From assembly GCA_030431455.1 (NCBI GenBank), contig JAUIJE010000014.1, forward strand, positions 124,001-188,000: 64,000 bases of DNA. The letters run 5' to 3'. The position numbers and the translations under genes were made by a program. The number at the start of each line of letters is the position of its first letter. Position 1 is the first letter of the stretch. The DNA comes from a bacterium (GTDB lineage Bacteria > Myxococcota > UBA727 > JAUIJE01). Positions 17,158 to 63,359 of the stretch are shown piece after piece. The notes below the pieces were generated by a model, which was given only the letters and a program-made list of their open reading frames with translations, was not told where the DNA came from and did no database searches.

Positions 17158-18162
17158 ATGAATTGGCGCATGGGATGTGGACTGTTGTTGCTGAGCGCGG
17201 GGTGCGGCGGGTCGTCGCTCACCGCGGACAGCGTTGATTTTGGCCCCGTGGGGTCGGCGGTGTGGGTGCAGCTCGACCTGGACGACGACGCCACCGGGGC
17301 GTTGACCGCGGGCGAGGTCGCCCACGCGGTGTTGCTCACCGACGACGCGGACGGGTGCGCGACCCTCACCGCTGCCATCGACGCGTGCGAAGACGCGGTG
17401 GATGAGGACAGCGCACTGACCGCGGCCGAGCGGTGTGAGCTGGGGGACAACCTCTACGAAGATCTCGCTGACGCGTTTGAGCCGCTGTACGGCGCAGGCC
17501 ACCGCACCGCCACGGCGTTTTTCTGGGAAGGCGACGGCGTGTTCGATGAGCCCGCGGCCCAAGCCTACACCGCGGGGGCGGACCCGGAAGACGATGGGGT
17601 GGCGCTCCGGCTCGACCTGTTCACCGCCAACCCCTTCGACGCGTTCGCCGATGCCTGGGACGAAGACAGCTGCGGCGCGGACCCAGACCTCAGAGGCGAC
17701 CTGGACGTCTACCTGCTGCAAAGCGGGAGGCTCACCATCGACGGCACCGAGCCCTTGACCGGCAACGGGGAGGGCGCGCTTCAGGACAAGGACGGTGATG
17801 CCGCCGGCAATGTCTCTGTGTCGTTCGCGGCCGATGCCTGCGAAATCCGCATCCGCAACAGCGACGCGGCCCGCTGCGCGGCGTTCGCGCTGCCCCCGCT
17901 GGCCTTCGCCGCGGTGGGGGGCACCGGCACCCCGGGGCCGGACAATGTGACCGCGTGCAAGCAGTACGTGGTGAAGGCCAACCAAGCCTACGAGGACTGC
18001 GGCAAGAACATCGTCATCGACCCCGTCGAGACTTGCCCCGCCGACCTCAACGATGGGCGGGACTGCCTGGATTTCTTCGACGAGCTCGGCGACAGCTACA
18101 TGTGCACGGGCGAGGACGTGACGTTCTCGTTGCCGGCCGAGCCCTGCGAAGCCCCGGCCTGA
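17158..18162 (+). CDS. Lipoprotein with C-terminal mini-cysteine domain
   Basis: 334 aa from the ATG at 17158. The signal peptide ends LLLLSAGC. Residues ~20-260 form an acidic region with several Cys and no clear family. Residues ~264-334 (CKQYVVKANQAYEDCGK.., CPADLNDGRDCLDFF, DSYMC) match the small lipoproteins at 47628-48494 in Cys spacing and in the LN-x-G-x-DC and Y-x-C motifs. The gene therefore fuses a unique N-terminal part to a module that also exists alone. It is divergent from mhpF with 131 bp between starts. Confidence 0.7.
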   Translation: MNWRMGCGLLLLSAGCGGSSLTADSVDFGPVGSAVWVQLDLDDDATGALTAGEVAHAVLLTDDADGCATLTAAIDACEDAVDEDSALTAAERCELGDNLYEDLADAFEPLYGAGHRTATAFFWEGDGVFDEPAAQAYTAGADPEDDGVALRLDLFTANPFDAFADAWDEDSCGADPDLRGDLDVYLLQSGRLTIDGTEPLTGNGEGALQDKDGDAAGNVSVSFAADACEIRIRNSDAARCAAFALPPLAFAAVGGTGTPGPDNVTACKQYVVKANQAYEDCGKNIVIDPVETCPADLNDGRDCLDFFDELGDSYMCTGEDVTFSLPAEPCEAPA

Positions 18163-45530: not shown

Positions 45531-47048
45531 ATGCCTTCCCGGTTGAGCGGTCTTTTCCCCCCCACCCCGCCGTCCCCGCGTGCACCGTCGACGACGACCG
45601 ATGCGCCGTCGACGACCACCACCCCCGCGTCCTCCACGTCGCGCCCTGCGCCCGGCCCGTCGCCGGCGGAGGTGCCGACCGCACACATCGCGGCCATGCC
45701 CCCGCGCGCGACCCCGGCGCCCCCGGCGCCCCGGACTGGGCTGTCGCCCCTGGGCGCCCGGTTTGTCGCCGCCGACGAGCAGGCGGTCGCGTTGCAGGCA
45801 TCGCGCGGACGCGCCCGGGACGCCCTCGCCGTCGACCACGAAGCCAACCCCCGGGATGCCGTGTGGGTGCGGAACATGTCCTACGTGCGCTACGTCGACC
45901 AGGCGCGGCAGGCGCTCGCGGCCGCGGGTTTGCCCACTTCGGCCGAGGGCGTGACCGTGCGGGTGGTGGACTTCCTCGAGGACGGCTACATCAATGCTCA
46001 TGGATCGCAGGTCGCCCGGGTGGTGGGCGGTGCCTACGGCTTCGCCCAGAACTGCGACCTCCGGCTCGACGCCACCCATATTTCGCTGCCGGTGGACAAG
46101 TTCGTGGCGGACTGGGGCGAGCGGCTTCAGCTGTCCGATGACCAGAGGGCCCGCTGTGCACAGTTTGGCCAGGCCCCCCAAGCGATGCGGGCGGGCACGC
46201 TCACCGACCCCGCCGAGCTGGGGCAGTCATTGGTCAACTACCTGATTCAGGGCATTCACCGTCGACGGGCGGACATCGCGGACACGGTGGCGAACAAGGA
46301 CCCCCACGGTCCGGTGGCGATCCTCAACATGTCCTACGGCTACGTCCCCTTGGTGGGGGCCAAGCTGCTCACGCGTTTTCTCGCCCGGCGGGTGACCAAG
46401 GACGATCCCGACGGGTCCCTGGCCGAGGCCATCCGGGCCACGACCGCGGATGGGACCATCGGCAGCCCCGACGTGGTCAAGTTCCTCCTCGCCCAGCTCG
46501 ACCGCCAACTCCAGGACCCGGCCACCGCCGCGGCGGTGGCCGAAGCGCGCGCGGCCTTGGCCCAGGACGTGGCTGATGCGCAGAAGCGGGGGGTGTTGCT
46601 GGTGACCGGCGCGGGCAACAACGGAGGCGATCGGGCCGACCACGACCTCGACCACCTGGCCCCCATCGACCGCGACATCGAGGGGTTGATCACGGTGGGG
46701 TCGGTGTGGCTCGGCAACGACGTGGATGACCCCGCCGACGACAAAGTCTCCGCGCACTCGTCGCCCGGGGAGGTCGACATCGCGGCGGTGGGGAGCGACG
46801 TGCCGTCGATGTCGAGCCCCGCCGGGTCCGAAAGTGGGACGTCGCTGGCCAGCCCCATGGTGGCCGCGGTGGCGGCGTTGATGGTCAAGGCCAACCCCGT
46901 CATCACCGCCGAGGCCATCGTAGAGATCTTGCTCGGGGGTCAGGTCACGCGCGACATCCCCGGGGACACCCGCGACGGGGTGGGCATGCTCGACCCGGTG
47001 AAAGCGGTGGCCGCGGCGGCGGCGTGGCGGCCGGCCCCGGCGGGCTGA
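45531..47048 (+). CDS. Subtilase-like (S8) protein with short Asp-His spacing
   Basis: 505 aa from the ATG at 45531. No signal peptide is seen; the first ~60 residues are Pro/Ser/Thr-rich. The catalytic triad candidates are D147 (VRVVDFLEDG), H157 (NAHGSQVARVV) and S438 (SGTSLASPMVAAVAALM), plus an oxyanion Asn-like VTGAGNNGGD at ~360. The last two motifs are textbook S8. In subtilisins Asp and His are ~30 residues apart, here only 10, so the canonical D-x-G loop is reduced or D147 is not the true Asp. A long insert (~165-330) separates His from the core. Substrate unknown. Confidence 0.75.
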   Translation: MPSRLSGLFPPTPPSPRAPSTTTDAPSTTTTPASSTSRPAPGPSPAEVPTAHIAAMPPRATPAPPAPRTGLSPLGARFVAADEQAVALQASRGRARDALAVDHEANPRDAVWVRNMSYVRYVDQARQALAAAGLPTSAEGVTVRVVDFLEDGYINAHGSQVARVVGGAYGFAQNCDLRLDATHISLPVDKFVADWGERLQLSDDQRARCAQFGQAPQAMRAGTLTDPAELGQSLVNYLIQGIHRRRADIADTVANKDPHGPVAILNMSYGYVPLVGAKLLTRFLARRVTKDDPDGSLAEAIRATTADGTIGSPDVVKFLLAQLDRQLQDPATAAAVAEARAALAQDVADAQKRGVLLVTGAGNNGGDRADHDLDHLAPIDRDIEGLITVGSVWLGNDVDDPADDKVSAHSSPGEVDIAAVGSDVPSMSSPAGSESGTSLASPMVAAVAALMVKANPVITAEAIVEILLGGQVTRDIPGDTRDGVGMLDPVKAVAAAAAWRPAPAG

Positions 47049-47051
47049 CGG

Positions 47052-47348
47052 TCAGCTCCCGCAGGGCCCGAGGTCGTCGTCGGTGTTGGTCAGTTTCTCG
47101 ACGAGGTCTTCGGTGCCTTCGATGCACTCCAACGTACAATCGTCCGCGAGCTCGCGATTTTCCCAGCACACCCCGTCGGGGCGGTAGATGTTGACGTTGG
47201 CCGGGTTGCGGTTGCGCACCTGGTCGAAATGCTCTTGGCAGCTGACGTAGATTTCGCACTCTGGGGTCTGCCCCACGCCGCACGCGGCGAGGCTCCCCCC
47301 GACGACAAACACCGCTCCCAGGGCGGTCAGGATTCTTCGGGCGCGCAT
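47052..47348 (-). CDS. Mini cysteine lipoprotein, type B
   Basis: 98 aa. The lipobox is FVVGGSLAAC. The mature part has six Cys: CEIYVSC, GVCWENRELADDCTLEC, GPC. It matches the next upstream gene (CAQYVECAAHY, GSCWEDAELATKCELAC, GPC), so the two are paralogues. The ATG at 47348 lies 22 bp inside the upstream gene's end. Function unknown; three disulphides are likely in the periplasm or at the surface. Confidence 0.72.
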   Translation of the reverse strand: MRARRILTALGAVFVVGGSLAACGVGQTPECEIYVSCQEHFDQVRNRNPANVNIYRPDGVCWENRELADDCTLECIEGTEDLVEKLTNTDDDLGPCGS

Positions 47349-47638
47349 GGGCCGCTGTCCTCTCCGGCGACCCGCAAGGCCGCATTCAGGGCCGCGAGCG
47401 CCTCTTCGCAGGCGAGCTCACATTTGGTGGCCAGCTCCGCGTCCTCCCAGCAGCTGCCGTCGGCTTGGTAGGCGGTCACGTCCGGCTCGTCGAGGTCGAA
47501 CACCGTGCTGTAATGGGCCGCGCACTCGACGTACTGGGCACAGGCGGGGGCTTGTTCGACGCCACAGCCCGCGGCCCCAAGGCCCAAGCCCCCGATGACC
47601 CCGCACCACACCGACAAGCGGCCGACCTTACCCCGCAC
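47327..47638 (-). CDS. Mini cysteine lipoprotein, type B
   Basis: 103 aa from a GTG at 47638 (GAGGGG upstream), overlapping the previous stop by 11 bp. The signal peptide ends GGLGLGAAGC. It has paired Cys motifs CAQYVEC and CWEDAELATKCELAC, and a C-terminal GPCAPEES. Paralogue of the 98-aa gene downstream. The tight overlaps of this gene row suggest one transcript. Confidence 0.68.
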   Translation of the reverse strand: MRGKVGRLSVWCGVIGGLGLGAAGCGVEQAPACAQYVECAAHYSTVFDLDEPDVTAYQADGSCWEDAELATKCELACEEALAALNAALRVAGEDSGPCAPEES

Positions 47639-47897
47639 AGCTGCACCCCTCGACGTCGTACAGTACCCCATCGTCCGTGCATGTGTAGCCCTCGGCCAGG
47701 CATTCGTACAAGGCGGTGCAATCGCCGCCCTCGTTGAGCGACGCCGGGCAGCTGGTCTCCACGTCGTACGGCGGACTGAACCCGCAGTCGCTGTACACCC
47801 CGTTGACCTCTTGCACGTAGGCCTCACACGCCATCTGGTTGGTCGAGCCGCACCCGGACACCAAAAGCAGGCCGACGAGGACGAACCCGCCGCGCAT
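47628..47897 (-). CDS. Mini cysteine lipoprotein, type A
   Basis: 89 aa from the ATG at 47897, sharing TGATG with the upstream stop. The lipobox is GLLLVSGC. Type A pattern: CEAYVQEVNGVYSDCG, TSCPASLNEGGDC, YECLAEGYTC, then CSC. It shares L-N-x-G-x-DC and Y-x-C with the next two genes and with the C-terminus of the lipoprotein at 17158-18162. Confidence 0.72.
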   Translation of the reverse strand: MRGGFVLVGLLLVSGCGSTNQMACEAYVQEVNGVYSDCGFSPPYDVETSCPASLNEGGDCTALYECLAEGYTCTDDGVLYDVEGCSCAG

Positions 47898-48178
47898 CAA
47901 GCGCCGCTGTCGCCACAGGACGGGGCGGGGTCGTGCACCACCGAGCCGTCGTCACACGCGTAGCTGTCGGCGAGGGTTTGGTAGTAGTCGACGCAGTCCC
48001 GCCCGTCGTTGAGCGTCTCGGGGCAGGTCTCTTGCTCGTCGAGGGAGTTGGGCAAGCCGCAGTCTTCGTAGGCCTCGTTGTAGGCATCGACGTAGGCCCG
48101 GCAGGGGGCGACGTTGTCGGGGCCACATCCGGTGGCCAAAAGCCCCCACCCAATGCCAAGCACGCACAACCGCTTCAT
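47897..48178 (-). CDS. Mini cysteine lipoprotein, type A
   Basis: 93 aa from the ATG at 48178 with GGAGATGTGGAC upstream. The lipobox is GLLATGC. Pattern: CRAYVDAYNEAYEDCG, ETCPETLNDGRDC, YYQTLADSYAC, DPAPSC. Closest in the window to the C-terminal domain of the protein at 17158-18162 (AYEDCG, CPADLNDGRDC, DSYMC). Confidence 0.75.
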   Translation of the reverse strand: MKRLCVLGIGWGLLATGCGPDNVAPCRAYVDAYNEAYEDCGLPNSLDEQETCPETLNDGRDCVDYYQTLADSYACDDGSVVHDPAPSCGDSGA

Positions 48179-48203
48179 GTCCACATCTCCTCGAGGCCGC
48201 CGC

Positions 48204-48494
48204 TCAGATGCACCCGGTGCACTGGTCGGGCGTGCCCTGAAGTACGCCGCCGACGCAGGTGTACGCGTCGGCCAAGCATTCGTAATACAGGGTGCAATCG
48301 ATGCCGCCCGAGTTGAGGTGCGCGGGACAGGCGGAGGCCTCGTCCAGGGGTGCGTACTCATTGGCGGGGTCGGCTTGGTTGCACTGGGCGACGGCGGCGT
48401 TGTAGCTCTGCACGTAATCCGAACAGGTCCCGTAGTTGTCGGGACCGCACGACATGGCCCCCGCGCACAGGGTGAAGAGCACTGCCCACCGCAT
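48204..48494 (-). CDS. Mini cysteine lipoprotein, type A
   Basis: 96 aa from the ATG at 48494. The lipobox is LCAGAMSC. Pattern: CSDYVQSYNAAVAQCN, SACPAHLNSGGIDC, YYECLADAYTC, then CTGC. First gene of the five-gene row; a 25-bp gap separates it from the next. It is divergent from hrcA, 111 bp between starts. Confidence 0.75.
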   Translation of the reverse strand: MRWAVLFTLCAGAMSCGPDNYGTCSDYVQSYNAAVAQCNQADPANEYAPLDEASACPAHLNSGGIDCTLYYECLADAYTCVGGVLQGTPDQCTGCI

Positions 48495-48605: not shown

Positions 48606-49646
48606 ATGGACCCCGCGGCCTCTCTGGAGCTCAACGAGCGCGAACGGCTGGTGCTGTCGGCCATCGTGCGGCTGCACATCGAGGAGAAGGTGCCGGTCGG
48701 GAGCAAGACGCTGGTCGAGCGGCTCGACCTCGACATGTCCGCGGCCACGGTCCGCAACGTGATGGCCGCGCTCTCGGAAAAGATGCTCATCCACAAGCCG
48801 CACAAGTCCGCGGGCCGGGTGCCCACCGATCGCGGGCTGCGGTTTTTTGTCGACTCGCTCCTCGAGTACAAAGCCCCGCCCGAGGACCAGCGCCGCATCA
48901 TCGAACGCTCCATGGACACCGGGACCAACGTCGAGCGCGCCATGGACGAGGCCGGCCGGGTGCTCGCCACCTTGGCCCAAAAGACCTGCCTCATCCGCAC
49001 GCCCCGCGAGGACTCCGTGCGCATGTACAGCATCGAGCTCGTCGAGCTGCGCCCGGGCACGGTGCTCGTCATCCTCGTGACCGAATCCGGCCTGGTGCAA
49101 AACCGCCTGCTCGAGCTCCCCGACCGGTTGCTCGGCCAGAGCGTGGGGACCGCCGCGTTGCAGGCCTTGTCCCAAGAACTGACCGGCCGGGTCCGGGGCC
49201 GCACCCTGAGCGAAGCCCGCGCGGTGTTGCAGGGCGAGCTCGATCGCGACGAGCAGGAAAAGGACGCCTGGGAGACCAAGCTGTTGCAGCAGGCGCTGGC
49301 CGCTCAGGGCGAAATCGGGCTCAAGGTCGAGGGGGGCCAACACCTGGCCGACGCCACCTTGCCCGATGGGCTCAAGCGGCTCTACGCGGCCCTCGAGGAG
49401 AAATCGCGCTTGCTCGACCTGCTCGACAGCGCGTCCACCGCCGAGGGGGTGCGCATTTTCATCGGGGAGGAGAGCGGTTTTTCAGAGTTCGCCGACCTCT
49501 CGGTGGTGACCGCGACCTACGGGCGGGGGGCGAGCGTGCTGGGCTCCATCGGGGTCATCGGCCCACAGAACATGGACTACGGCCGGGTGGTGCCCCTGGT
49601 GACGTTCACCGCCGACGCGGTGTCTCGTTATCTCGGGCAGTCGTGA
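48606..49646 (+). CDS. hrcA: Heat-shock repressor HrcA
   Basis: 346 aa from the ATG at 48606. The N-terminal winged helix is typical (LNERERLVLSAIVRLHIEEKVPVGSKTLVERLDLDMSAATVRNVMAALSEKMLIHKPHKSAGRVPTDRGLRFFVDSLL). The C-terminal GAF-like dimerisation region includes VRIFIGEESGF and GSIGVIGPQNMDYGRVVPLVTFTADAVSRYL, the family's closing signature. HrcA represses chaperone genes and is tuned by GroEL. It starts the hrcA-grpE-dnaK run; dnaJ is not next to it in this window. Confidence 0.95.
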   Translation: MDPAASLELNERERLVLSAIVRLHIEEKVPVGSKTLVERLDLDMSAATVRNVMAALSEKMLIHKPHKSAGRVPTDRGLRFFVDSLLEYKAPPEDQRRIIERSMDTGTNVERAMDEAGRVLATLAQKTCLIRTPREDSVRMYSIELVELRPGTVLVILVTESGLVQNRLLELPDRLLGQSVGTAALQALSQELTGRVRGRTLSEARAVLQGELDRDEQEKDAWETKLLQQALAAQGEIGLKVEGGQHLADATLPDGLKRLYAALEEKSRLLDLLDSASTAEGVRIFIGEESGFSEFADLSVVTATYGRGASVLGSIGVIGPQNMDYGRVVPLVTFTADAVSRYLGQS

Positions 49647-49734
49647 GGGCTTGTCGGCGGGCGCGGCCGCGGGTGAAAAAGCCTTTTCGTTTGAGCCGAT
49701 GGCGTTATGTTCCAGCGGCCTGAAGGAGCATCAG

Positions 49735-50580
49735 TTGTCGAGCGGCAAGAAAAATCCCATGGACGATGCGGTGGCCGAAGCGTTGCGCAGCGTCGAGCGC
49801 TTGGAAAACACCGAGCCTGCGGCCACGGTCGCGTCCTCCGATTCGTCCAGTGACGAAGATTTTGATCCCGACAGCATCCAGGTTCTGCAGGCGGACGACC
49901 TGCCGCCGAGCGCGGACCCCAACGCCAAGAGCGATGCCGCCCCCCTCGCGGTCGATGGCCTCGACGAGGACATCCTGCTCGAGGACGACGGGGACGACCC
50001 GCCGCCGAAAAAGCCGTCCGCCCAGGACGCGATCTTGCAATCGATGATCGAGGCCAAGAACGAAGCCGTCGGCGCGCTCGAGCAGACCCAAAAAGAGGCC
50101 GCGTCGATGCGCGAGCGGCTGATGCGGGTGAGCGCCGAGTTCGACAATTACAAAAAGCGCCAATCGCGGGAGCGGCAGGACGCGATCAAGTTCGCCAACG
50201 AAGGGCTGCTCAAAGAGCTCCTGCCGGTGCTGGACAACTTCGACCGGGCCTTGACCGGCATGAAGTCGAGCGCCGAGGACAGCGCGGCCGCGGCCAACAT
50301 GCTGCAGGGCGTCGAGATGGTCGCCCGGCAGTTCAAGGACACGTTGGCCAAGGTCGGGGTCGAGGAGTTTTCCGCGTTGGGTCAACCATTTGACCCCTCG
50401 TTGCACGAGGCGGTGAGCGCGCGAGAAGACCCGTCGGTTCCCAACAATACGGTCGTCGAGGAATACCAGCGTGGGTATAAGCTCAATGGCCGGTTGGTTC
50501 GGCCGTCGATGGTGATCGTCTCCACGGGGGGCGCGTCCGGGAAAGTGCAAGCGGCACCGGGCGCCGAGGACGACGAATAA
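49735..50580 (+). CDS. grpE: Nucleotide exchange factor GrpE
   Basis: 281 aa. The start is taken as TTG at 49735, with AAGGAG 7 nt upstream; ATG at 49759 would be the fallback. An unusually long acidic N-terminus (~110 residues, Asp/Ser/Pro rich, QVLQADDLPPSADPN) precedes the coiled coil (VGALEQTQKEAASMRERLMRVSAEFDNYKKRQSRERQDAIKFANEGLLKELLPVLDNFDRAL) and the beta-domain ending VVEEYQRGYKLNGRLVRPSMVIV. It exchanges ADP on DnaK. The family norm is ~190-210 aa. Follows hrcA by 88 bp. Confidence 0.95.
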   Translation: MSSGKKNPMDDAVAEALRSVERLENTEPAATVASSDSSSDEDFDPDSIQVLQADDLPPSADPNAKSDAAPLAVDGLDEDILLEDDGDDPPPKKPSAQDAILQSMIEAKNEAVGALEQTQKEAASMRERLMRVSAEFDNYKKRQSRERQDAIKFANEGLLKELLPVLDNFDRALTGMKSSAEDSAAAANMLQGVEMVARQFKDTLAKVGVEEFSALGQPFDPSLHEAVSAREDPSVPNNTVVEEYQRGYKLNGRLVRPSMVIVSTGGASGKVQAAPGAEDDE

Positions 50581-50674: not shown

Positions 50675-52532
<1,858 letters not shown>

Positions 52533-52534
<2 letters not shown>

Positions 52535-56817: not shown

Positions 56818-58929
56818 TCAGGGCACGTCGGTCTGTCCGTCGGCGTTGCTGCCCCAACACTCGATGGTCTCGTCGAGGAGCAGCCCGCAGGCATGGTCTT
56901 GTCCCGCCGACACCGCGGCGAAGTCCCCGCCGTGCGCGTCGGTCTTGCCGTTGGCGTCGTCCCCCCAGCACTCGACCTTGTCGTTGTCGACCCGGACCAC
57001 GCAGGCGAAGCGGTCCCCCGCGCTCACTTGTTTCACCGTGGCCGCCCCCCCCGCGGTGATTTGGCCAAAGCTGTCGTCGCCCCAGCACAAGACCTCGTCG
57101 AGGAGGGTGAGGCCGCAGGTGTGGTCGTAGCCGGCGCTGACCTGATGGGAGGCAAAATCCGCCGGGGGGGTCGCCTGGCCGTCGGCGTTGTCGCCCCAGC
57201 AGGTGACAACATCGGTCCCGACCTCGCGCCCGCACACATGATCGGGCCCGGATTGGATCTGGGAGAACGCGGTCGCGGGCGGGGACGTCACCCCCGATGA
57301 GCCGCCATCGCCCCAGCACACGGGGGTGCGGTCGCTTTGCCGCAATGCACATGCATGGAGCGCCCCGGTGGTGACCCAATCGGCGCGAAAACCCGCCGGC
57401 GGCGCCGCGCGCCCGGACAGGTCGGTGCCCCAACACTCCGCGAAGTTCCCGCTCGCCCGCTGGCCGCAGGTGTAGCCATCCCCCGCGTCGAGGAACAAAA
57501 ACGCCACCCCGGGCGGCGGGTCCTCGCTCATCGCCCCCCAGCATTCGACCTGGCGGTTGTCCTTGCGAATCGCGCAGGTGTGCGCGGCCCCGGCGCTGAC
57601 CCCGACGAAGGCGGTGCTCCTCGTGAAGGGGCAGACGTTGCCGCCTCCACAATCAAAGTCCGCGCTCGACCGCGGCAGCAACCGGTGTTCGCCGAAAGAA
57701 TAGGTCAAGACCCCGGACACGCACGCGAACGAATCGGCGTCGGACATGGTGGTGGCCAACATCTCGGAGCCGACCCGGATGCTCAGGGCCCCGGCGTCGC
57801 AGCTCACGGTGGAGACCCCGAACCCGTCGGGAATGCCCCCGGTGCACGCGCCGCACACCTCGACGAACTGGCCCTCGAAGTCTTCGTCATCGAACCCCGG
57901 GGTCCACAGCATCGACGGGGTCAAAGGGGCCCCGGTCGACGGGACGCGAATGCGGTAGTGCAGCAGCTCGACCTCGGTGAGGTCATTGAAGTCGACGAGG
58001 GTGCCGACCACGGTGACCTCGTCTCCGATGTGCAGGCGGCCGATCGCGTACACGTCGTTGAGGTTGTGGATGTAGATGCCTTCGTGGGCGCCTGTGCCCG
58101 ACCGGATCCAAAACCCGGTGCGGGGCAGGCTGGCGTCCACCGCGGTGACGGTGCCCGAGACGGTCACGGGGGTGTCGAGCGCCAACGCGCCGAACATGTC
58201 TTCGATCGGCCGCGTCGCGGGGAACACGCACCGGTTGTCGGTGCTGCAGATGGCGCCATCCTGGCAGTCGGTGTTGCCGTTGCAGCCCACGTAGCAGCCG
58301 CCTTCGATGCACACCGGTCCGGGCCCGCCCGGCACCGCGGGACAGGTCGCGGTGTCGTTGCTGGTGCACGCGGTGGTGCACGTCGACCGATCGAGCCCGT
58401 CCACAGTCCCATTGGTGCAGGTCTCGCCCGCCTCACACGGCCCACACGGGCCGTACGGCCCGTAGCCGTACCCGTAGGTGCCGGTGGGTTCCTCCTCGGG
58501 GCTGACGTCCCCGTCGCCGTCGCCGTCCCCATCCCCATCCCCGTCCCCGTCGCCATCTCCATCTCCGTCGCCGTCGCCGTCGCCGTCGCCATCGCCGTCG
58601 CCATCTCCGTCCCCGTCGCCATCACCGTCTCCGTCGCCATCGCCATCCCCGTCGCCATCTCCGTCGCCGTCGCCATCCCCATCTCCGTCGCCGTCGCCGT
58701 CGCCATCGCCATCTCCGTCGCCGTCGCCATCTCCGTCTCCGTCGCCATCGCCATCACCGTCTCCGTCGCCATCCCCGTCGCCGTCGCCCACGCGGCACCG
58801 TCCGTCGACACACACTTGGGAGAAGGGACAGTCCGCGGTGTTGTTGCACACCGGGCTGACGTTGAGCCCCCAGTAACATCCCGGGGTCAGCCACAGGGCG
58901 ACAAACACCAGCCACCACCCGCGCATCAT
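56818..58929 (-). CDS. Gly-Asp-tract lipoprotein with OB-fold-like and RCC1-like repeats
   Basis: 703 aa; the ATG at 58929 overlaps the upstream stop (ATGA) with GGGAGG before it. The lipobox is FVALWLTPGC. A Cys cluster (VCNNTADCPFSQVCVDGRC) is followed by 47 Gly-Asp pairs (residues 48-141), then another Cys-rich region (CGPCEAGETC, CTTACTSNDTATC, DNRCVFP). Residues ~280-400 (VTVSGTVTAVDASLPRTGFWIRSG) look like an OB-fold domain. The C-terminal ~260 residues are RCC1-like repeats of the form AGxxHTCxxRxxxxxVxCWGxxxxG. Surface or outer-membrane attachment is likely. Coupled to the FlgO/CsgG-like gene. Confidence 0.82.
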   Translation of the reverse strand: MMRGWWLVFVALWLTPGCYWGLNVSPVCNNTADCPFSQVCVDGRCRVGDGDGDGDGDGDGDGDGDGDGDGDGDGDGDGDGDGDGDGDGDGDGDGDGDGDGDGDGDGDGDGDGDGDGDGDGDGDGDGDGDGDGDGDGDGDGDVSPEEEPTGTYGYGYGPYGPCGPCEAGETCTNGTVDGLDRSTCTTACTSNDTATCPAVPGGPGPVCIEGGCYVGCNGNTDCQDGAICSTDNRCVFPATRPIEDMFGALALDTPVTVSGTVTAVDASLPRTGFWIRSGTGAHEGIYIHNLNDVYAIGRLHIGDEVTVVGTLVDFNDLTEVELLHYRIRVPSTGAPLTPSMLWTPGFDDEDFEGQFVEVCGACTGGIPDGFGVSTVSCDAGALSIRVGSEMLATTMSDADSFACVSGVLTYSFGEHRLLPRSSADFDCGGGNVCPFTRSTAFVGVSAGAAHTCAIRKDNRQVECWGAMSEDPPPGVAFLFLDAGDGYTCGQRASGNFAECWGTDLSGRAAPPAGFRADWVTTGALHACALRQSDRTPVCWGDGGSSGVTSPPATAFSQIQSGPDHVCGREVGTDVVTCWGDNADGQATPPADFASHQVSAGYDHTCGLTLLDEVLCWGDDSFGQITAGGAATVKQVSAGDRFACVVRVDNDKVECWGDDANGKTDAHGGDFAAVSAGQDHACGLLLDETIECWGSNADGQTDVP
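58507..58788 (-). repeat. (Gly-Asp)47 coding hexanucleotide repeat
   Basis: 282 bp of GGN-GAY hexamers encode residues 48-141. Independent of the 306-bp tract at 9011-9316 in a different protein body. GAC and GAT mix freely while the peptide stays exact. Confidence 0.97.
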
Positions 58930-61515: not shown

Positions 61516-62433
61516 TCAGCGGCGGCGGCGCAGGCGGCCGAGCCACAGCCCGGGCAACAGCACCGCCGCGAACGAACCCCCGACCGGGCAGCCCGAATCC
61601 GGCGGGTCGTCGGGGGCGGGCTCGGGCTCGGGTTGGGCCTCGGGCTCAGGTTGGGCCTCGGGCTCAGGTTGGGCCTCGGGCTCGGGCTGGTTGGCCAAAA
61701 GCTCGTCGGTCTCGTCGAGAAACGGCTGGATGAAGTCGTCGACGTGGGCGTCGACCCGCACCATGATCGTGTCCTCGCCGCAGGTGGACACCGCGTGCAT
61801 GATGCCCGCGACCTGCCCGTCGACGAACGCGGAGCCGCCGCTGTCCCCAAAACAACCGCCCCCTTGTCCCCCCGCGGCGACAAAGAAGTCCTCGTCGAGC
61901 CACTGCAGCGGGCTTTGCACCTCGCGTTTTTGGCCTTCGAAGTCATTGTCATTGGATCGGCCGAACCCGACCATGGTCACCGGGGCCCCGAACAGGTTGT
62001 TGGTCATCGGGGCGGTGCGGAACGGGGTCGGGTCCACCGGGGCGGCTTGGCTGAGGCGGAGCAGGGCGACGTCGTACGCGGTGCCCGCGCCGTCGTTTTG
62101 TTGCCAGTCGGGGTGCAGCACTTCGCGCCCCACCGTGACCTGCTGGCCGCCTTCCCAAATGGAGTCCCCGAACAGCACATTCAAAAACCCGCCGTTGTTG
62201 CCGTCGAGACAATGCGACGCGGTCAACACCACCCAGGGGTGAATCAACGTGCCGGTGCAGAAGATGTTGTTCCCGCCGTTGACCAGGCCCACGGTGCCCG
62301 GGTACCCGCTGGTGAGGGTGCCGTTGTAAATGGCATGTTCGCCCCGCGCTTCGTGGTCGACGTCAAACGACGACGGGGCGCAGCCGATGAGCCCGGCCAG
62401 CACCCAGGTGGCGAGGCCGGGGCGGGCCCTCAC
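61516..62433 (-). CDS. S1-family (trypsin-like) protease with PEPEAQ spacer and Cys-TM-Arg tail
   Basis: 305 aa from a GTG overlapping the upstream stop (GTGA). The signal peptide ends VLAGLIGC. The trypsin domain is at ~33-235: IYNGTLTSGYPGTVGLV, then His in LTASHCLD, Asp in YDVALLRL and Ser in CFGDSGGSA, so the triad looks complete. A spacer of three QPEPEA units plus PEPAPDDPPD leads to GCPVGGSFAAVLLPGLWLGRLRRRR: Cys, hydrophobic stretch and Arg cluster like MYXO-CTERM surface-sorting tails. Almost certainly an exported, surface-attached protease, possibly for prey or polymer degradation. Very close paralogue of the next gene. Confidence 0.88.
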   Translation of the reverse strand: MRARPGLATWVLAGLIGCAPSSFDVDHEARGEHAIYNGTLTSGYPGTVGLVNGGNNIFCTGTLIHPWVVLTASHCLDGNNGGFLNVLFGDSIWEGGQQVTVGREVLHPDWQQNDGAGTAYDVALLRLSQAAPVDPTPFRTAPMTNNLFGAPVTMVGFGRSNDNDFEGQKREVQSPLQWLDEDFFVAAGGQGGGCFGDSGGSAFVDGQVAGIMHAVSTCGEDTIMVRVDAHVDDFIQPFLDETDELLANQPEPEAQPEPEAQPEPEAQPEPEPAPDDPPDSGCPVGGSFAAVLLPGLWLGRLRRRR

Positions 62434-63359
62434 GGCGCCATCCGGCGCCGGCGCAGCCAGAGCGCAGGGAGCAATACCGCCGCGAACGATCCGCCCCCCA
62501 CCGGGCAGCCGGACCCGGCGCCGTCGCCTTCGGGCTCGGGCTGGGCTTCGGGCTCGGGCTGGGCTTCAGGCTCGGGCTGGGCCTCGGGCTCGGGCTGGGC
62601 CTCGGGCTCGGGCTGGTTGGCCAAAAGCTCGTCGGTCTCGTCGAGGAACGGCTGGATGAAGCTGTCCACGTGGATGTCCACCCGCACCATGGTGGTGTCT
62701 TGGCCGCACACCGAGCCGGCGTGGATGATGCCCGCGACCTCGCCCTCGAGGAACGCCGAACCGCCGCTGTCCCCAAAACACGACCCGCCTTGCCCCCCAA
62801 AGGTGGTGAAGAACGCTTCGTTCATCCATTCGATGGGGCTTTGCACCTCGCGTTTTTGGCCTTCGAATTCATTGTCATTGGATCGGCCGAACCCGACCAT
62901 GGTCACCTGGTCGCCGTAGTGGCTGTTGTTGAGCGGCGCGGTGCGAAACGGGGTCGGGTCCACCGGCGCGGCTTGGCTCAACCGCAGCAAGCCCACGTCG
63001 TACCAGGCCCCCGCGCCGTCCCCTTGTTGCCAGTTGGGGTGCAGGACCTCGCGGCCCACCGTGACCTGTTGGCCGCCCTCCCAAATGGAGTCCCCGAACA
63101 GCACATTCAAAAACCCGCCGCTGTTGCCGTCGAGACAATGCGACGCGGTCATCACCACCCAGGGATGGATCAACGTGCCGGTGCAGAAGACATTGCCGCC
63201 GCCGTTGACCAGCCCGACGGTGCCGGGATACCCGCTGGTCAGCGTGCCGTTGTAAATCGCCTGGTCGGTCTGGGCTTGTTGCGCCACGTCCCAATCAGAC
63301 GGCGCACACGCGGCCAGCGCCGCCGCCCACACCAGGCCAAGTCCTCGCCAACACTTCAT
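62430..63359 (-). CDS. S1-family (trypsin-like) protease, paralogue
   Basis: 309 aa from the ATG at 63359. The signal peptide ends AALAAC. The triad motifs MTASHCLD, YDVGLLRL and CFGDSGGSA match the downstream copy nearly residue for residue. The spacer has four QPEPEA units plus QPEPEG, one more than its neighbour, followed by SGCPVGGGSFAAVLLPALWLRRRR. Long stretches of DNA identity (for example around 63070-63125 and 62150-62210) indicate a recent tandem duplication or ongoing gene conversion. Its stop overlaps the second copy's GTG, so they are cotranscribed. Confidence 0.9.
   Translation of the reverse strand: MKCWRGLGLVWAAALAACAPSDWDVAQQAQTDQAIYNGTLTSGYPGTVGLVNGGGNVFCTGTLIHPWVVMTASHCLDGNSGGFLNVLFGDSIWEGGQQVTVGREVLHPNWQQGDGAGAWYDVGLLRLSQAAPVDPTPFRTAPLNNSHYGDQVTMVGFGRSNDNEFEGQKREVQSPIEWMNEAFFTTFGGQGGSCFGDSGGSAFLEGEVAGIIHAGSVCGQDTTMVRVDIHVDSFIQPFLDETDELLANQPEPEAQPEPEAQPEPEAQPEPEAQPEPEGDGAGSGCPVGGGSFAAVLLPALWLRRRRMAP

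Follow-up and report, generated by a model that had tools for sequence, protein, structure and literature searches.

Two unnamed families of cysteine-rich mini lipoproteins in an operon-like row beside a Myxococcota hrcA-grpE-dnaK locus

The window analyzed here is a 64,000-nucleotide stretch of a Myxococcota genome (assembly GCA_030431455.1, contig JAUIJE010000014.1, positions 124,001 to 188,000). It had been predicted to contain a row of five small lipoproteins that overlap or nearly touch on one strand, and all five genes, encoding proteins of 89-103 aa, were confirmed (Table 1). They are transcribed in the order A1-A2-A3-B1-B2 from the minus strand and span ~1.4 kb, from 48494 to 47052. 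A gap of 25 bp separates A1 from A2, the A2 stop and A3 start codons have one base in common (TGATG), and A3/B1 and B1/B2 overlap by 11 bp and 22 bp, respectively. The start/stop overlaps at the last three junctions make translational coupling likely. In sequence, each of the five proteins has the hallmarks of a bacterial lipoprotein, a short N-terminal signal peptide followed by a lipobox (for example LLATG, LLVSG or SLAA ahead of the Cys), with Gly directly after the Cys in every case. The mature parts are 73-80 aa long and strongly acidic, with net charges of -10 to -15. On the opposite strand, a Subtilase-family protein (Pfam Peptidase_S8; 45531-47048, +) ends 3 bp before the B2 stop codon. 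The window also encodes two adjacent, closely similar trypsin-like secreted proteases of 305 and 300 aa whose ends overlap (61516-63332, -).

Table 1. Genes of the lipoprotein row, the type A fusion and the neighboring heat-shock genes (window positions).
Feature	Coordinates	Strand	Description
A1	48204..48494	-	Type A mini lipoprotein, 96 aa, 8 Cys beyond the lipidated Cys; first gene of the array
A2	47897..48178	-	Type A mini lipoprotein, 93 aa, 6 Cys beyond the lipidated Cys
A3	47628..47897	-	Type A mini lipoprotein, 89 aa, 8 Cys beyond the lipidated Cys
B1	47327..47638	-	Type B mini lipoprotein, 103 aa, GTG start, 6 Cys beyond the lipidated Cys
B2	47052..47348	-	Type B mini lipoprotein, 98 aa, 6 Cys beyond the lipidated Cys
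Type A fusion	17158..18162	+	334-aa lipoprotein with a type A domain at its C-terminus (17917-18150; domain E 1.6e-21)
hrcA	48606..49646	+	Divergent from the array, 111 bp between start codons; homologues of 41-44% identity in G012-G015
grpE	49699..50580	+	Homologues beside arrays or B genes in G010, G011, G012 and G162
dnaK	50675..52534	+	Shares 70-78% identity with the DnaK proteins encoded next to B genes in G162 and G012

An ORF filter (60-140 aa, a lipobox and six or more additional Cys) was run on third-order Markov controls (30 runs). They yielded 0.13 such ORFs per 64 kb; the real window yielded five, four of them in the row (A1 escapes the filter). Together with the homologues found elsewhere, these controls rule out chance ORFs.

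The two cysteine-rich families of the original prediction were both recovered, although the spacings it gave were one residue too long: the motifs are C-x2-Y-V in type A and C-x2-Y-x2-C in type B. The CPxxLNxGxDC box of type A is present, but A1 has one extra residue inside it. Alignment of 14 type A domains from this genome revealed a skeleton of six invariant Cys. Past the lipidated Cys, 19 of 20 type A domains contain 6, 8 or 10 Cys, and the lone exception has 7, with another Cys just upstream of the domain. In A1, A3, both G010 A proteins, G126 and G164, a Cys in the motif Y[YF]xC and an extra C-terminal Cys always occur together, the signature expected of a fourth disulphide. Type B is more uniform, with exactly 6 invariant Cys in all 25 aligned members (two counts of 7 in our tally include the lipid Cys) and an invariant Trp after the third. 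The disulphide-rich character proposed at the outset is thus supported by near-perfect even Cys counts, which derive partly from related sequences and from which the disulphides themselves are inferred. The pattern also extends beyond the window, recurring in homologues of other genomes. Disulphides can be made, since one VKOR and four DsbA-like thioredoxin domains are encoded in the genome. Beyond the Cys, only N22 and D61 (type A) and G59, W62 and A68 (type B) are near-invariant; these residues make a conserved metal site unlikely, and no ligand site is evident from the conserved residues of either type.

Treating types A and B as a single family is not supported. In an hhalign comparison the aligned part (30 columns, probability 87.6) was limited to the signal peptide, the lipobox and the first Cys of the domain, and the folds predicted by AlphaFold2 differ in layout. 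The type A model (A2; block pLDDT 88-98 over residues 21-90) consists of a long helix followed by two short helical turns, another helix and a beta hairpin, and the type B model (B2; block pLDDT 94-99 from residue 31) is a helical hairpin; one alignment row was omitted from the prediction input. Structure prediction, which had been suggested as a check, therefore gave confident models of both domains, and neither matched a solved fold: the best Foldseek E values against the PDB were 4.5 (A) and 4.2 (B), in a search whose sensitivity is lowered by small size. Type A was also without a Foldseek match among viral models. The two domains are putative new folds, although novelty is not established by these comparisons with solved structures and, for type A, viral models.

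The proposal that the proteins belong to no established family was upheld, as no consistent match for either type was found in Pfam, NCBIfam or PDB sequences. Pfam and NCBIfam gave scattered one- or two-member matches (best E 0.003) that were inconsistent across members and due in part to signal peptides, while profile searches of PDB sequences gave a best E of 0.81 for type A and nothing for type B. Literature searches found no description of such lipoprotein families. Types A and B are two unnamed families, described in no database searched. A phage or defense origin was rejected for lack of a consistent PHROGs match for type A and of any PADLOC match; a search for a plasmid match to B2 found none.

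Both domains are reused in larger proteins. The predicted C-terminal type A fusion was verified (Table 1), and three tandem A domains occur in each of two further lipoproteins of the same genome, of 273 aa (C22:27617-28300) and 616 aa (C8:97502-98212). B domains lie at the start of, or within, larger proteins in G122 and G172. In the 616-aa lipoprotein (L017 7182-9032), a long (GD)n linker precedes the three domains; a large lipoprotein in the window (56818-58929, -) also has a long (GD)n linker. No homology was detected by phmmer between the N-terminal part of the fusion lipoprotein and the lipoproteins adjoining B genes in G013-G015.

A profile search of Myxococcota for copy number, again as originally suggested, detected type A in 10 and type B in 28 of 195 genomes. 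The present genome (7.7 Mb) contains 15 type A domains in 11 genes: three in the array, the fusion, four stand-alone lipoproteins on the same contig ~106 kb from the array (C22:63894-65352), the two three-domain lipoproteins and one gene on C23. None of the other genomes searched has more than two type A domains. Type B is present here in two copies only. In trees that are rough, as the sequences are very short, type A splits into a subfamily containing the window genes and relatives elsewhere and a second found in this genome only (96/89), and B1 and B2 pair (87/79) inside a clade with G010 and G011 (97/97). This pairing suggests that type B was duplicated here. The description of the set as lineage-specific and expanding therefore holds for type A, but not for type B, which is phylum-wide with one duplication in this genome.

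Nor is the combined array specific to this lineage. A degenerate query of genome contigs matched two Myxococcota MAGs only, JAHDBA and JAHDGS (taken as G010 and G011), which belong to another family of the same order. In G010 an A-A-B array, and in G011 an A-B array, is divergent from grpE, so that, counting the window, three genomes of the order have an A-then-B array next to grpE or hrcA-grpE-dnaK. The first A gene in both occupies the same position as A1 of the window, with the same 8-Cys layout and, ahead of the CP box, an insertion that ends in Y-x-L/Y-P-L. The G011 A gene holds an assembly gap, a run of N at about 8020-8080 of L081, and its frame looks broken in the assembly. In G012, a fourth genome of the order, a single B gene is divergent from an HPt-like gene, after which come hrcA, grpE and dnaK. 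In G162, which belongs to another family of the phylum, grpE-dnaK precedes a Cys-rich ORF of another type (L087 3848-4111, -) and then six overlapping B genes. The position at the dnaK locus is conserved within the order, and outside it the conservation is suggestive.

Other B genes have different neighbors. Those of G084, G086, G166 and G179 adjoin a conserved pair of predicted secreted proteins, those of G013 and G015 adjoin two larger lipoproteins with HlyD/MacB-type genes, and HlyD/MacB-type transporter genes adjoin the second B copy of G012. The larger-lipoprotein pair is conserved beside B genes in G013-G015 (L085 6714-8128, L086 4110-5569 and L090 8494-10055), with HlyD and MacB-type genes following in G013 and G015.

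Taken together, we favor, at a probability of about 0.6, a translationally coupled operon of secreted, lipid-anchored modules with three or four disulphides and a binding or structural role at the outer membrane. The five genes would form a single such operon. Its products would leave the cytoplasm through Sec, receive their lipid at the lipobox Cys and acquire disulphides in the periplasm as they fold into two mini-domains that are unrelated or only very distantly related. Type A would contain three disulphides, or four where Y[YF]xC and the extra C-terminal Cys are present, and type B would be a helical hairpin held by three. Several slightly different copies may be made together as putative lipid-tethered modules, with the same modules presumably reused in larger lipoproteins. 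Disulphides and lipid anchoring can be well inferred from the sequences, and an outer-membrane location is probable; that the proteins act as a binding or structural set is a guess. B genes beside predicted envelope genes count in favor of an envelope module, as do the three-tandem, C-terminal-fusion and larger-protein copies in favor of modularity.

A less likely possibility is that the mini lipoproteins are functionally tied to hrcA-grpE-dnaK, for example as co-induced proteins or as periplasmic redox or folding sentinels. An array or single B gene does adjoin hrcA and/or grpE(-dnaK) in the window, G010, G011 and G012, and the six B genes of G162 follow grpE-dnaK in a separate family. However, only 5 of ~31 inspected B loci are at a heat-shock locus, and hrcA in G013-G015 lacks an adjoining A or B gene in the stretch examined, as well as adjoining grpE/dnaK, the B genes lying elsewhere. 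Neither a CIRCE element nor a sigma-70-like promoter that might drive the operon was found in the divergent gap between the array and hrcA, and the window as a whole has no CIRCE site. Given the window, the one match outside the order (G162) would arise by chance in a few percent of cases by rough estimate, and is suggestive only.

Equally unlikely, in our estimate, is a set of paralogues that differ chiefly so that their exposed surface varies, as a diversifying surface coat or as decoys facing kin or phage. In its favor, paralogues inside the operon are only 36-42% identical with Cys positions fixed, and type A is strongly expanded in one genome. Against it, the A-then-B order is the same in G010, G011 and the window, which speaks for roles that are conserved and not rapidly exchanged, and PADLOC gave no match. 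It is more doubtful still that two undescribed disulphide-stabilized mini-folds form an envelope arm of the Myxococcota heat-shock locus, as lipid-anchored sensors or holdases that couple the control of cytoplasmic chaperones to folding or redox stress in the envelope. Sets of small secreted antagonism factors (toxins or immunity lipoproteins) are the least probable, for although the proteins are small, Cys-rich, secreted and multi-copy, every member has a lipobox or is fused to a larger lipoprotein, no effector, immunity or secretion partner was seen in the neighborhood, and PADLOC and PHROGs gave no match and no consistent match, respectively.

CHCH, saposin-like, elicitin and CFEM domains are small, helical and held by three or four disulphides, as types A and B would be, but their Cys spacing is unlike by inspection and no Pfam, PDB-sequence or Foldseek match connects them. 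The favored envelope modules can also be compared with TraA of Myxococcus xanthus, whose cysteine-rich tandem repeats (TIGR04201), with cysteines that the authors expect to be oxidized, form a proposed stalk in a PA14/MYXO-CTERM protein (PMC3325183). Both are Cys-rich extracytoplasmic modules of Myxococcota that are repeated in larger envelope proteins, whereas types A and B are mostly stand-alone lipoproteins; TIGR04201 is not among their NCBIfam matches, a negative that holds only if this model is in the library scanned. Tgl and CglB are myxobacterial outer-membrane lipoproteins with type II signal sequences (PMC3325183), features that types A and B have or are presumed to share, but the latter are very small and occur in operon sets, and Pfam and NCBIfam scans revealed no relation.

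New here are A-then-B arrays beside grpE or hrcA-grpE-dnaK in the order, a lone B gene at such a locus in G012, and six B genes after grpE-dnaK in another family. Gene finders can easily overlook small Cys-rich lipoproteins, for which family models are few. Interest in the present ones rests on the absent database match, the strong type A expansion and the recurrence of the arrays at the dnaK locus. With confidently predicted folds, no library match and that recurrent position, the two families are targets for structure determination, and they raise the question of why some Myxococcota keep enlarging their lipoprotein sets.
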